In this document: positions 10,686 through 25,692 of the stretch, one piece after another
How the letters are laid out: every line of letters starts with the position of its first letter
Numbering within the stretch: the stretch's first letter is position 1
From: Chryseobacterium jejuense
Lineage (GTDB): Bacteria; Bacteroidota; Bacteroidia; Flavobacteriales; Weeksellaceae
DNA: 64,000 nucleotides
Direction: 5' to 3'
NCBI RefSeq assembly: GCF_900100075.1
Contig: NZ_FNEG01000004.1
Span: 248,001 to 312,000, forward strand
Program-made: the position numbers and the translations under genes
Notes under the pieces: generated by a model
Told to the model about the DNA's origin: nothing
What the model saw: the letters and a program-made list of their open reading frames with translations, nothing else
Databases searched by the model: none

Positions 10686-10721
10686 TAGCTTAGAGGTCTG
10701 AATATTGCTTTTTTCAGTAAC

Positions 10722-10771
10722 GCGTTTGACTGGCAGTCAAAAGGCACGGGTTCGAATCCCGTATTCTCCAC
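10722..10771 (+). tRNA. 3' fragment of a tRNA-Ala(GGC) gene
   Basis: An anticodon arm TTTGA-CTGGCAG-TCAAA (10725-10741, anticodon GGC), a T arm ACGGG-TTCGAAT-CCCGT (10746-10762) and the 3' acceptor strand ATTCTCC plus discriminator A are all present. T at position 70 fits the Ala G3-U70 identity pair. There is no 5' acceptor strand or D arm upstream, and the variable loop is one base short, so this is a partial copy, as left by tRNA-targeted integration. Confidence 0.75.
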
Positions 10772-21479: not shown

Positions 21480-21846
21480 TCATAAATATTGTTAAATTTT
21501 AATCTAATCTTGTTATTCAATTAATTACAACCATTCAAAAGGATATTTGTGCCATCGCTTTTTTAATAATTATTGATGGGATTTCTTCATTTCAATTTCA
21601 ATTTCCACTAACAAAAACACTTTGCATTTTTCATAAAAATTTCAATTTATTTTACCTTTTCCATAACGTTAAAAACATCGAATTTCAATATTAAATGAAT
21701 TAAAAAATAGAACAATCAATTTTAAACATTCTAAATCATAAAAAAATACAACAATCAAAATACTGATTATCAATGATATAATTCATTAACGATAATTTAA
21801 TATTTAAAAACTCTACATTTTTGGTGGACTAATAAAAATTATATTA
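21480..21846. other. AT-rich intergenic stretch without a gene
   Basis: This is very AT-rich with no ORF of substance. It carries the upstream part of the promoter of the leader peptide (TTTG at 21820-21823). Confidence 0.6.
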
Positions 21847-21854
21847 TATATTTG
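21820..21854 (+). promoter_or_regulatory. Promoter of the leader-EamA-metNIQ operon
   Basis: The -7 box TATATTTG (21847-21854) matches TAnnTTTG; a TTTG lies at 21820-21823, 23 bases upstream, slightly longer than the usual 19-21. Transcription would start around 21860, about 20 bases before the leader ORF. Confidence 0.6.
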
Positions 21855-21880
21855 CAAACGTATTCAGGAAATAAAATAAA

Positions 21881-21979
21881 ATGAGCACAGAAACAAAGAA
21901 TAACGCAACAATAAAACACATCATAAAAAACATGATGAAGGATATCTGTATGCCTGTGCATAAAGAATACTGTGGGTGA
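21881..21979 (+). CDS. Met/Cys-rich 32-residue leader peptide
   Basis: ATG at 21881 to TGA at 21977-21979. The N-terminal half is ordinary (MSTETKNNATIKHIIK), but the C-terminal half, NMMKDICMPVHKEYCG, holds M18, M19, C23, M24 and C31: five sulphur residues in the last 15. It is followed 27 bases later by a strong intrinsic terminator and then by EamA and methionine ABC transporter genes, the layout of ribosome-mediated attenuation. A small hairpin (TATGC/GCATA, 21949-21962) lies over the Met24 codon. No homologue is known to me; the peptide's role is inferred. Confidence 0.6.
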   Translation: MSTETKNNATIKHIIKNMMKDICMPVHKEYCG

Positions 21980-22005
21980 CCTTACTTTTAATATGACATA
22001 CTTTT

Positions 22006-22036
22006 AAAGGCCCTACCAAGTTGTAGGGCCTTTTTT
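22006..22036 (+). terminator. Intrinsic terminator / candidate attenuator before the EamA-met operon
   Basis: An 11-bp stem AAAGGCCCTAC (22006-22016) / GTAGGGCCTTT (22023-22033) is followed by a U-run. It lies between a promoter-plus-leader ORF and the EamA start at 22068, with no other promoter visible, so read-through must be regulated. The CCTAC of the 5' arm could pair with GTGGG at 21972-21976, over the last leader codons; this alternative pairing is only five bases. Confidence 0.8.
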
Positions 22037-22067
22037 ATTTAAAAACCAAAACATTAAAAAAATAACA

Positions 22068-23066
22068 ATGAGCAATTCTAAAAACAAATGGCTGGTTCCA
22101 TTGGCATTTACAAATATCTATGTAATATGGGGGATTACGTTTTTAGCTATTTCATTTGGCTTAAAAGGTTTTCCGCCGTTCATTCTTTCGGGATTGAGAT
22201 TTCTGGTAGCAGGAATTCTGATGATTGGATATCTCCTGGCTAAAGGGGAAAAAGCAAACTCTCTCATCAACTGGAAGAAAAACGCAATTACCGGAGTTCT
22301 TATTCTTACCGGGGGAACAGGGCTTGTAGCCTGGGGCGAGCAATATGTAACTGCTTCTGAGGCGGCAATCTCCATAGCAACCGGGCCATTCTGGTTCATT
22401 GCTATTGATAGAAAAAACTGGAAATACTATTTTTCAGATAAGTTTATTCCTATAGGATTAGCGATTGGTTTTGTAGGATTGGTCTTTTTCTTAAAAGGAA
22501 GTGTCAATTCAACGGCGGCACATGCTGCTGCAGATCCTCAACTCCGTATTACTGCTTTTGTGGTATTGGGACTAAGTTCTATTGCGTGGGTTTTGGGTTC
22601 TTTATATTCTAAGAAAAATCCGGCTTCGCAATCTACTTTTATGAATATTGCCCAACAGCTTATTGTGGCAGGAACAGCTGCTTTTCTTATTGCCTTATTA
22701 AGAGGGGAATGGACTGATTTCTCGGTGTCTACAGTACCGGTCTCAGCCTGGACAGGCGTTCTGTTTTTGATCTTCTTTGGATCGATAGTCGCTTATTTGT
22801 CGTACATTTGGCTGCTGTCTGTAAAACCCGCTGCATTGGTGAGCACTCATACTTACATTAACCCTATTGTAACGGTTATTGCAGGATGGATTGTGGCCAA
22901 TCAAAGTATCAATGGAGGTCAGTTATATGGTTTGGCAATCATATTGCTGGGAGTATTGCTGACCAATGTCACCAAGTATTTCAAGCTTTCAAAAAGGGCT
23001 AAGGTCAAAATCAGAAGAGTTAGAAGATTTTTTAACAGGGCAGGCAAAAGGTATCAACCTATTTAA
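22068..23066 (+). CDS. EamA/DMT family transporter
   Basis: 332 residues with ten hydrophobic segments forming two EamA repeats (FTNIYVIWGITFLAISFGLK at the start of the first; SVKPAALVSTHTYINPIVTV in the second), as in YedA/RhaT-type drug/metabolite exporters of the inner membrane. The C-terminus is a basic cytoplasmic tail (KRAKVKIRRVRRFFNRAGKR). It is first in an operon with metN (18 bases) and metI, behind the Met/Cys-rich leader. A role in amino-acid export or overflow of methionine/cysteine-related compounds is plausible but unproven. Confidence 0.9.
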   Translation: MSNSKNKWLVPLAFTNIYVIWGITFLAISFGLKGFPPFILSGLRFLVAGILMIGYLLAKGEKANSLINWKKNAITGVLILTGGTGLVAWGEQYVTASEAAISIATGPFWFIAIDRKNWKYYFSDKFIPIGLAIGFVGLVFFLKGSVNSTAAHAAADPQLRITAFVVLGLSSIAWVLGSLYSKKNPASQSTFMNIAQQLIVAGTAAFLIALLRGEWTDFSVSTVPVSAWTGVLFLIFFGSIVAYLSYIWLLSVKPAALVSTHTYINPIVTVIAGWIVANQSINGGQLYGLAIILLGVLLTNVTKYFKLSKRAKVKIRRVRRFFNRAGKRYQPI

Positions 23067-23084: not shown

Positions 23085-24113
23085 ATGATAGAAATCAGAA
23101 ACATATCAAAAACATTCCATCAGAAGAAACAGGCCTTCAAGGCATTGGATCAGGTGAGCCTCAATATAGATAAAGGAGATATCGTAGGAATTATAGGATT
23201 CTCCGGTGCCGGAAAAAGTACCCTGATCCGTACCGTTAATCTGTTGGAAAGACCGGATGAAGGACAGATCATTATTAATGGAAAAGATTTTACCCAATTA
23301 AGTTCAAAGCAGCTTGCTGAGGAACGTAAAAAAATAGGAATGATCTTCCAGCATTTTAATCTTCTTTCTTCGAGAACAGTTTTTGATAATGTAGCCCTTC
23401 CACTGGAACTGGATCACAGCAGCAAAGATCAAATCAAGAACAAGGTCAACGAATTATTAAAAATTGTAGGTCTTGAAGATAAAGCCAACGATTACCCAAG
23501 GAGTCTTTCCGGCGGCCAGAAACAAAGAGTAGCCATTGCAAGAGCTTTAGCTAATGATCCTCACCTTCTGCTTTGTGATGAAGCAACCAGTGCCCTGGAT
23601 CCGGTGACCACTCAATCTATTTTACAGCTTTTAAAGGATATTAACCAGAGATTAGGAATTACCATCCTTCTGATTACCCATGAAATGGAAGTTATCAAAT
23701 CTGTTTGTAACCATGTTGCTGTAATCGACAAAGGAAAACTACTAGCCAAAGGAACTTTAAGTGAGATCATTTCAAACCGTGAAAATCCGGTGATCCAACA
23801 ATTTATAAATTCAGACGTCATGACCCTGCCACAGGAACTTAATAACAGACTACAGAAAGAGCCACAGGATGGTTTATTTCCGCTGGTCGAAATAGAACTT
23901 AACGAAAACATAAGTGTTGAACAAATTCTTTCAGCATTATATAATGAACATAAAATCCCATACAAACTTTTGAAAGCAGATGTAGAATATTTTGGGAATT
24001 CTAATTTTGGTAAACTACTTTTGCAACTTCAAGGTGAAGCTGAGGAAAACCAAAAAGCCATCTATTATTTTAATCAAAATAAAATTCAAAATACAGTAAA
24101 AGGATATGCTTAG
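23085..24113 (+). CDS. metN: Methionine ABC transporter ATP-binding protein MetN
   Basis: 342 residues. The ATPase has Walker A GFSGAGKST near residue 38, the signature LSGGQKQRVAIARAL near 140 and Walker B LLLCDEATSALD. After about residue 260 the NIL ligand-sensing domain of methionine importers follows (VEIELNENISVEQILSALYN), which allows inhibition by bound methionine in homologues. It overlaps metI by eight bases. With MetI and MetQ it imports methionine across the inner membrane. Confidence 0.95.
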   Translation: MIEIRNISKTFHQKKQAFKALDQVSLNIDKGDIVGIIGFSGAGKSTLIRTVNLLERPDEGQIIINGKDFTQLSSKQLAEERKKIGMIFQHFNLLSSRTVFDNVALPLELDHSSKDQIKNKVNELLKIVGLEDKANDYPRSLSGGQKQRVAIARALANDPHLLLCDEATSALDPVTTQSILQLLKDINQRLGITILLITHEMEVIKSVCNHVAVIDKGKLLAKGTLSEIISNRENPVIQQFINSDVMTLPQELNNRLQKEPQDGLFPLVEIELNENISVEQILSALYNEHKIPYKLLKADVEYFGNSNFGKLLLQLQGEAEENQKAIYYFNQNKIQNTVKGYA

Positions 24114-24762
24114 TGATGTGGTACTTGCCCTTTTGGCAAAAGGAACCTGGGAAACGGTTTATATGACATTTGTGTCAGGATTTTTTGGTTTTGTGCTAGG
24201 CCTTCCGGTTGGAATTCTGTTATTTTTAACAAGAAAAGGACAACTATTGGAAAATGTTGCCTATTACAGAGCATTATCCATTATCGTGAATGTATTCCGT
24301 GCCATCCCTTTTATTATTTTAATTGTGTGGATGATTCCTTTTACAAGGATTTTAGCAGGAACATCCATCGGAGTAAACGCAGCATTGGTTCCATTAAGTG
24401 TAGGAGCAGCTCCTTTTATTGCCAGATTGGTGGAAAACAGCCTTATTGAAGTTCCTCACGGATTAATTGAAACAGCAAGAGCGTTGGGAGCATCTCCTTT
24501 CCAAATCATTAGAAAGGTTTTACTTCCGGAAGCACTTCCTTCGCTGATTAATAATGCTACTATTACTTTAATCACATTAGTAGGGTATTCTGCAATGGGT
24601 GGTGCTGTAGGTGCCGGCGGATTAGGACAGGTTGGTTATCAGTATGGATATATTGGTTATGATATTGTCATCATGAACACCGTTTTAGTATTGCTTGTTC
24701 TTTTGGTATTTATCATCCAGTTTATGGGAGATCGATTGTCTAAAAGATTTGACCATAGATAA
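24106..24762 (+). CDS. metI: Methionine ABC transporter permease MetI
   Basis: 218 residues with five membrane segments and the EAA coupling loop ETARALGASPFQIIRKVLLP near residue 125, which docks on MetN. The start overlaps metN by eight bases. RAIPFIILIVWMIPFTRILA and GYSAMGGAVGAGGLGQVGYQ are characteristic of MetI. It forms the membrane channel of the importer. Confidence 0.95.
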   Translation: MLSDVVLALLAKGTWETVYMTFVSGFFGFVLGLPVGILLFLTRKGQLLENVAYYRALSIIVNVFRAIPFIILIVWMIPFTRILAGTSIGVNAALVPLSVGAAPFIARLVENSLIEVPHGLIETARALGASPFQIIRKVLLPEALPSLINNATITLITLVGYSAMGGAVGAGGLGQVGYQYGYIGYDIVIMNTVLVLLVLLVFIIQFMGDRLSKRFDHR

Positions 24763-24882: not shown

Positions 24883-25692
24883 ATGAAAAAAATAAAGATT
24901 TTAGGTTTAATAGCTGCTGGTGTACTGCTTTTCAGTGCATGCTCAGGAAGAAAGGATGATCCGAATTTCATCAGGGTCGGAATTACTTACGGACCGGAGC
25001 AGGAAGTGGCCGAAGTAGCTAAAAAGGTAGCGAAGGAAAAATATAATCTTGAAGTGGAACTTATCCCTTTCAACGATTATGTAGTTCCCAACGAAGCCTT
25101 GGTAAATGGTGACATTGATGCCAATGCTTTCCAGCATGCTCCTTATTTAGCCGAACAATCAAAACAGAGAGGGTATAATCTTGCAATTGTAGGAAATACC
25201 TTTGTCTACCCTATTGTTGCCTATTCTAAAAAGATTAAAAACCTTAGTGAGTTGCAAAATGGGAGCACGATTGTTATCCCTAATGACCCTACCAATGGCG
25301 GCCGTTCTTTACTTCTGCTACAGAAAAACGGTTTATTGAAACTAAAAGCAGGAGTCGGATTGCTTCCAAAAGTCACTGATATTACAGAAAATCCAAAAGA
25401 GTTGAATATCATGGAAATTGAAGGGGCACAAATCCCTAGAGTTTTGGATGACAGAGATGTTGTTGTAGGAATTATCAATAACAATTTTGCAGCACAAGCC
25501 GGATTAGATTCGGAAAAGCAAGGAATATTTAAAGAAGATAAAGATTCGCCTTATGTTAACCTTGTTGTGACAAGACAGGATAATAAGAACAGCCAGAAGG
25601 TAAAAAACTTTGTGAAAGCTTACCAGTCTGATGAAGTGGAGAAAAAAGCCCTTGAGGTATTTAAAGGAGGTGCGGTAAAAGGATGGGATTAG
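24883..25692 (+). CDS. metQ: MetQ/NlpA family methionine-binding lipoprotein
   Basis: 269 residues. A lipoprotein signal ends in LLFSAC with the lipid-carrying C20, followed by the NlpA solute-binding domain (FIRVGITYGPEQEVAEVAKK; FNDYVVPNEALVNGDIDANA with the conserved QHAPYL; TIVIPNDPTNGGRSLLLLQK). It delivers methionine to MetNI. It starts 120 bases after metI; no terminator is seen in between, so it can be in the same transcript, though a separate promoter is possible. Confidence 0.95.
   Translation: MKKIKILGLIAAGVLLFSACSGRKDDPNFIRVGITYGPEQEVAEVAKKVAKEKYNLEVELIPFNDYVVPNEALVNGDIDANAFQHAPYLAEQSKQRGYNLAIVGNTFVYPIVAYSKKIKNLSELQNGSTIVIPNDPTNGGRSLLLLQKNGLLKLKAGVGLLPKVTDITENPKELNIMEIEGAQIPRVLDDRDVVVGIINNNFAAQAGLDSEKQGIFKEDKDSPYVNLVVTRQDNKNSQKVKNFVKAYQSDEVEKKALEVFKGGAVKGWD

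Follow-up and report, generated by a model that had tools for sequence, protein, structure and literature searches.

Leader-peptide attenuation is classically represented by the trp, his, thr and leu leader peptides of Proteobacteria, and a Bacteroides trp leader motif exists in Rfam; the control of methionine genes is known mainly through riboswitches, T-boxes and repressors. In Streptomyces lividans, a Met- and Cys-rich leader peptide, metL (MSTTSDRTPATEATTTPGARCMCRRMCAF), precedes metNIQ on a leaderless transcript, for which the authors, in the portion of the paper drawn on here, found no typical Rho-independent terminator (PMC8079986). Cysteine leader peptides of Actinobacteria, described in the excerpted part of their report as being without obvious terminators (PMC1262725), and uORFC-8-2, which in an excerpt of PMC8632094 precedes cysS of Rhodobacterales and has a terminator, share with the leader described below the runs or pairs of Cys codons in a short ORF ahead of sulfur-related genes, but their target genes are different ones and those same excerpts describe no Met cluster. 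According to the part of PMC2965389 used here, its authors knew of leader-peptide systems at that time in no phyla other than Proteobacteria and Actinobacteria, and they add Firmicutes. In Bacteroidota, the relevant section of PMC7366714 gives the -7 consensus TAnnTTTG and reports leader-peptide-like small ORFs in 5' UTRs of B. thetaiotaomicron, naming no methionine one there; the text of PMC6847099 held no match to leader terms. Among the matches listed in a search of open-access papers, we found no report of a Met/Cys leader attenuator in Bacteroidota, and the Bacteroides trp leader motif was not found there either.

The window, that is, the whole analysed stretch of 64,000 nucleotides from Chryseobacterium jejuense (contig NZ_FNEG01000004.1, positions 248,001 to 312,000), contains a leader that resembles the trp, his, thr and leu attenuators in its short ORF enriched for the pertinent codons, its predicted, mutually exclusive antiterminator and terminator and its position before an operon for the same amino acid, but differs from them in that the apparent signal is Met together with Cys, that the last codons and the stop codon themselves form the antiterminator strand, and that it belongs to another phylum and is unrelated in sequence. 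With metL it shares the operon and the richness in Met and Cys but no evident sequence similarity, and the two leaders probably originated independently. ORFs resembling S. lividans metL also stand before metN at two Streptomyces loci (L324, MTTTSIRILATEATLTPGARCMCRMCRMCAF; L350, MTATSSRTPATEAKMTPGARCLCRMCDR). The attenuation mechanism is thus of a known kind, and a Met/Cys leader before metNIQ has already been reported in Streptomyces. Our reading, to which we assign a probability of roughly 0.87 on comparative evidence, is that the leader in the window acts as a ribosome-mediated transcription attenuator of the methionine importer that responds to starvation for Met (and Cys). The features of the locus are the following.

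21810-21830, no strand assigned: degenerate inverted repeat ACTCTAC-N7-GTGGACT, adjoining the promoter on its upstream side and outside the attenuator proper
21847-21854, plus strand: -7 promoter box TATATTTG, fitting TAnnTTTG and kept in genus alignments
21881-21979, plus strand: leader ORF MSTETKNNATIKHIIKNMMKDICMPVHKEYCG and stop, 32 codons, frame kept across the genus
21932-21952, plus strand: candidate sensor codons Met18 Met19 ... Cys23 Met24, nearly invariant among 97 distinct ORFs
21969-21983, plus strand: predicted antiterminator left strand ACTGTGGG. G. CCTT, comprising the last codons, the stop and 4 nt beyond
22007-22021, plus strand: predicted antiterminator right strand AAGGCCCTAC-CA-AGT, identical with the terminator 5' arm and the loop edge
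22006-22036, plus strand: intrinsic terminator AAAGGCCCTAC(CAAGTT)GTAGGGCCTTT and T run, with an 11-pair stem at 22006-22033
22068-23066, plus strand: EamA-family transporter gene, first of the operon in the window clade (Pfam PF00892, 2.8e-28)
23085-24113, plus strand: metN, ATPase of the methionine importer, carrying a NIL domain (TIGR02314, 4.6e-134, under the curated cut-off; NIL, 2.1e-13)
24106-24762, plus strand: metI, permease (NF008049, 2.1e-113, above cut-off)
24883-25692, plus strand: metQ, lipoprotein (NF008285, 6e-120, above cut-off)

The first-pass annotation had listed a -7 box, a 32-codon ORF with three Met and two Cys among its last 15 residues, a hairpin over the Met24 codon, an 11-bp terminator with a U-run, and EamA followed by the methionine importer genes; all of these are present, the hairpin as TATGC/GCATA in the window fold. 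Of the 149 distinct ORFs of the genus, 112 have a 5-pair hairpin of some sort over the Met24 region by a permissive criterion that carries no chance control. Candidates for a protector or pause hairpin in the untranslated RNA are a CATYA/TGATG pairing, possible in 135 of the 149, and a GTGGG/CTTAC hairpin in the window fold. The composition of the ORF stands out: the window holds 310 ATG-initiated ORFs of 20-45 aa, and only this one has at least five Met plus Cys within its last 16 residues, so that a chance ORF can be rejected.

Comparison within the genus establishes both the reading frame and the Met/Cys cluster. The EamA-linked leaders have 31-34 codons and comprise 97 distinct DNAs from 106 upstream regions; counting the stop as -1, Met stands at -16 in 91 of the 97, at -15 in 96 and at -10 in 95, and Cys at -11 in 92. 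The invariant core of the leader is made up of the Met plus Cys codons located 10-16 codons upstream of the stop. The outcome that the first-pass annotation had named as refuting, a lack of conservation of the ORF or of its Met/Cys codons in relatives, was therefore not observed. Gly at -2 is equally constant (96 of 97) with a free third base (GGT 45, GGA 18, GGG 17, GGC 16); at the Met sensor codons synonymous change is impossible, Met having a single codon. In an alignment of 56 leaders (A1), 112 of the 113 gaps within the ORF are of 3 bases and one is of 6, as against gaps of mostly 1, 2 or 4 bases, some of 3 and two longer ones in the spacer. In codons 2-16 the third position clearly varies most (0.41 vs 0.25 and 0.27), whereas in codons 17-33 its excess is only slight (0.27 vs 0.24), and a simple pairwise count gives pN/pS of about 0.44; the ORF is, on this pattern, probably translated. 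The proposal that Met and Cys are the sensors agrees with the conserved core but does not extend to Cys31, which sits within the antiterminator strand and, by geometry, would be too near the stop for a useful sensor codon. We think that both amino acids are sensed, chiefly Met in the window clade, whose leader retains Met18, Met19 and Met24 with one Cys in the core.

Terminator-like sites number 9 in 10 kb as against 7.1 (sd 2.6) in shuffles, and sigma-70-type promoter matches are likewise not beyond chance by number; the weight rests on conservation. The terminator is established by comparison: its stem is preserved with a T-A/C-G exchange among the 56 leaders of A1, and an intrinsic terminator lies upstream of the first structural gene at all 159 genus loci scored, 36 of which had been selected beforehand with a T-run requirement. 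A block of the form TGTGGN-TGA-CCTT is complementary to AAGG plus the terminator 5' arm and loop. The pairing of GTGGG (21972) with CCTAC had been recognised at first pass but considered weak; it is correct, and it is the core of a longer helix, 21969-21983 with 22007-22021, of -11.1 kcal/mol. Clades differ in register (GGT with ACC in much of the genus, GGG with CCT in the window clade, GGA with TCT in others). The pairs of the plain A1 register fail in part (column 86 with 136, for example, holds in only 29 of 56 rows), and the pairing was therefore followed by energy. Own left and right partners pair better than permuted ones, -11.44 vs -10.56, with 0 of 5000 permutations as good (117 of 123 leaders, six being unparsed by the pattern; 85 distinct). 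The same holds for representatives drawn from 159 loci of 158 genomes (L243 being from the same genome as L154 and L233 ending at a contig edge): with 63 of them the values are -11.54 vs -10.60 (0 of 10000), and with 24 the count is 10 of 10000, but it does not hold with nine very distant ones, for which the count, 1576 of 10000, is not significant; in all these permutation tests relatedness among the leaders remains. With the terminator 3' arm omitted, at least 8 antiterminator pairs form in 112 of 112 distinct genus leaders; once the left strand is shuffled, the number falls to 29 of 112. Covarying pairs, which the first-pass annotation had named as a check, were found in several leaders: TGTGGA with TCTACA becomes TGCGGA with TCTGCA in L081 (U-A to C-G), TGTGGT with ACCACG becomes CATGGT with ACCATG in L221 (G-C to A-U), and GTGGT with ACCAC becomes GGAGT with ACTCC in L206, L211 and L239 (two pairs). 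An antiterminator complementary to, and mutually exclusive with, the terminator is thus predicted on comparative grounds, its complementarity being kept in the genus and beyond, less clearly in part of g9.

A covariance model, R1, built from the 56 leaders of A1 establishes the co-occurrence with metN. It matches 167 of 173 genus genomes at E<=0.01, and metN is found at E<=1e-100 in 165; all 165 metN-bearing genomes match R1, and the six genomes without an R1 match are also without metN. The leader ORF was seen in the sequence of 164 of the 165 (158 plus G021, G041, G142, G156, G165 and G135), and in the remaining one, G137, the contig ends inside it. Two further genomes lack metN, G172 and G107. 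The borderline R1 match in G172 (E 0.002), rejected as a leader, is to the terminator alone and covers model positions 84-136 only, at a locus (L385) without metN and without leader ORF; a second stretch of this genome with a weak peptide match (L244) has neither metN nor leader. In G107, a stand-alone NIL-domain ORF is preceded by a leader of divergent sequence with its terminator (L201, 631-1092).

Relatives' upstream regions show which genes the leader accompanies. It precedes EamA-metNIQ in 106 of 106 parsed EamA upstream regions (135 loci were listed and 106 kept; L001, L032-L034 and L036-L060 are second copies from the same genomes, and L035 and L137, both from G021, lack EamA on their contig). 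When the 32-aa peptide served as query, 128 of the 173 genomes gave matches at E<=1, a good number of which are weak or due to chance, and among 20 further loci fetched for peptide matches away from EamA the leader directly precedes metN in 17, the other three (L145, L147, L152) having neither metN nor leader. Among the matches listed, counted from an E-sorted list, a close EamA orthologue is absent from 66 of 173 genomes. Since the leader stands directly before metN where EamA is missing, and since R1 matches track metN, its target is metNIQ rather than EamA, and control of EamA only can be rejected; the position originally given, before EamA-metNIQ, stands, with its target shifted to the importer.

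In the proposed mechanism, RNA polymerase would start at the -7-box promoter with a ribosome translating the leader close behind. When Met-tRNA and Cys-tRNA are plentiful, the ribosome would reach the stop and cover the last codons and CCTT, and with the left strand so covered the terminator would form and metNIQ would be off. When Met or Cys is scarce, the ribosome would stall in the Met/Cys cluster, at a distance of 10-16 codons from the stop, leaving the 3' end of the leader free to pair with the nascent terminator 5' arm before the 3' arm is made, so that transcription would read through into (EamA-)metNIQ. Geometry and established footprint sizes suggest that stalling anywhere from codon -16 to codon -10 frees the left strand and that a ribosome at the stop covers it. 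At equilibrium the terminator of the window has -18.2 kcal/mol against about -8 for the antiterminator, is the stabler in every state folded and still appears in the folded post-stall RNA; because the terminator wins at equilibrium, only a kinetic model can account for read-through. Along the direct path, the window leader faces a barrier of about 9 kcal/mol (from a saddle at 110 dcal and an antiterminator at -8.1), and in g35 the barrier is only 3.7-8.3 kcal/mol.

Could the conserved peptide act otherwise than as a gauge of tRNA charging? By analogy with TnaC and MTO1, the leader peptide itself might arrest in the ribosome tunnel on sensing methionine, SAM or cysteine there. In favour of this is the strong conservation of a C-M-P block in the 97 distinct EamA-linked ORFs, in which even a Pro outside the sensor residues is kept (90 of 97, CCT in every case). 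Outside the genus, however, we saw no shared arrest motif but only Met/Cys content (MMMCCGPVM, MMCCNTVM, KMFCCYD, MYMCCFFM, ICCMEK), and in L142, L143 and L156 the TGTGGT RNA motif stays in place while the peptide end shifts by one codon (CGD and stop); we consider arrest quite unlikely. The ORF, conserved and apparently translated, might instead encode a working small protein ahead of a plain terminator, but residues outside the core diverge while the 3' end stays complementary to the terminator arm, the peptide has no match in Pfam or NCBIfam, and the g9 ORFs are only 11-19 aa long, which makes this hardly credible.

That EamA is the first gene here, with the exporter YedA as its best NCBIfam match (below cut-off), would suit a leader that senses a general, antibiotic-type slowing of translation and controls an exporter; the leaders that abut metN in the 17 genomes without EamA, the tracking of metN by the model matches and the many genomes lacking a close EamA orthologue render this reading very improbable. 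SAM riboswitches serve methionine genes elsewhere, and a metabolite-binding riboswitch might overlap the leader region. Rfam covariance models, however, give no family at gathering score over that region, neither a SAM riboswitch nor a T-box or other leader, a permissive scan (E up to 5) yields sub-threshold matches only, and what lies upstream of the antiterminator is AT-rich coding sequence, leaving a riboswitch scarcely plausible. The Rfam search also gave a weak tRNA match at 10700-10767 of the window (30.5 bits, gathering 29). Attenuation driven by Met- and Cys-tRNA charging accordingly remains our preferred reading, supported by the fit of own over permuted partners; all the evidence for it comes from comparison, and genomes that are related do not count as independent.

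Beyond the genus, the arrangement recurs with other sequences. In g26, of the same family (G285; L188/L288 1-1000, minus strand), two tandem leaders, MNSNFIKYSNINKTSKMMSYCKCMSSDVGCIG and MQTEVKNKTMKNSKDMNKMMMCYRMKMQRCCRI, precede EamA-x-metNIQ, both of them equipped with a separate terminator and antiterminator, and the L188 antiterminator is rewritten yet complementary, TGT(T)GTCGTA with TACGACACA; so is that of the leader MKIPQKHWALDKQIINYKMIMCCHIHLSHCCCN in g10, of the same family (G225, L189), TTGCTGTAA with TTGCAGCAA. Short ORFs with a CC pair occur at 5 of 5 metN loci of g9, again the same family (MSGKMFCCYDLTFRIYMKK and the like), and at L315 (MLKFCFVCCSNIFQ). In g35, of family f3 in the same order and probably Flavobacterium, 7 of 9 genomes have leaders of the type MRKKNQNRSYCNSNMMMCCGPVMRLIDLAYL. 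The antiterminator of L274 and L276-L280 is GGCTT with AAGCC. In f55, another family of the same class, the leader at L375 is MIQTVSNITYMYMCCFFMQPRTAYDI, with CGTATGA pairing TCATACG. Each of the rewritten antiterminators of L188, L189, L274, L276-L280 and L375 follows a short ORF with Met and Cys, and Met plus Cys, often as MMxCC, is the only feature visibly common to the leaders across genera. No such leader precedes metN at L273 (g16), at L281 and L282 (two of the nine of g35) or at Sphingobacterium L304. When 26 chosen leaders were tested against partners across genera, the own partner came first in 17, second in 5 and third in 1, the window leader ranking third of 19; in three of six g9-type leaders it ranks 9, 16 and 9 of 21, foreign partners being as good or better, and there the putative antiterminator is not convincing.

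Tandem leaders, MNTLIQYNNTQKTSMMVCCVCMQSRNCCIG and MKSKINNITAKICCMEKTIPIFCV, also stand before genes for a PLP enzyme, which we read as cysteine-synthase-like, and a JAB-domain protein in G262 (g11; L289 227-566, minus strand; L197), a locus found with R1 (E 8e-4) and not via metN; of 59 genomes searched, two have a close relative of the PLP enzyme, one of them being G262. The remaining R1 matches in other genera (E 4e-5 to 0.005; L190-L196, L198-L200, L202) have no metN operon behind them, mostly resemble 3' ends of unrelated genes and were set aside. At L191 and L196, weak R1 matches in two g26 genomes, a short ORF with MM (MPYPFIKLANLLTVNKMMTYIALLV) is followed by a terminator. The metN gene of this type is itself rare, occurring in 5 of 295 drawn from the class and in 1 of 199 drawn across f3, and a metN profile scan of contigs gave, by title, 3 Bacteroidota among the 80 records listed. 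A broader scenario, which we put forward tentatively and rate at somewhat below even odds, is that of a Bacteroidota sulfur-amino-acid attenuator that would read Met-tRNA and Cys-tRNA jointly as an either-or starvation sensor, whose antiterminator was rewritten several times with its logic kept, which came to be used in tandem and spread to a cysteine-synthase operon, and whose origin was independent of the Streptomyces metNIQ leader.

The inverted repeat at 21810-21830 may be an operator, in which case metNIQ may be under dual control. The window copy has 2 mismatches to a genus consensus of about AGTCTAC-N7-GTRGACT. The pattern GTCTAC-N6-8-GTRGAC occurs exactly at two other sites of the same genome, one ahead of an ORF that matches NIL weakly (L372; 20.9 bits against a cut-off of 24), the other ahead of an ORF resembling a peroxiredoxin by eye (L373); its count is not beyond chance (forward 1 and reverse 2, vs 1 and 1 for a control pattern).

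Bacteroidota make little use of Shine-Dalgarno sequences, and a complete Met/Cys attenuator in such a phylum would offer a natural reporter, in vivo, for starvation of sulfur amino acids. Since attenuation of this kind requires that a ribosome follow the polymerase closely, it would make transcription-translation coupling in Bacteroidota directly testable. The leader would furthermore be a clean case of attenuator logic kept while the antiterminator sequence is rewritten. For the bacterium itself, it very probably allows methionine uptake to be turned on once scarcity of Met or Cys makes ribosomes stall.
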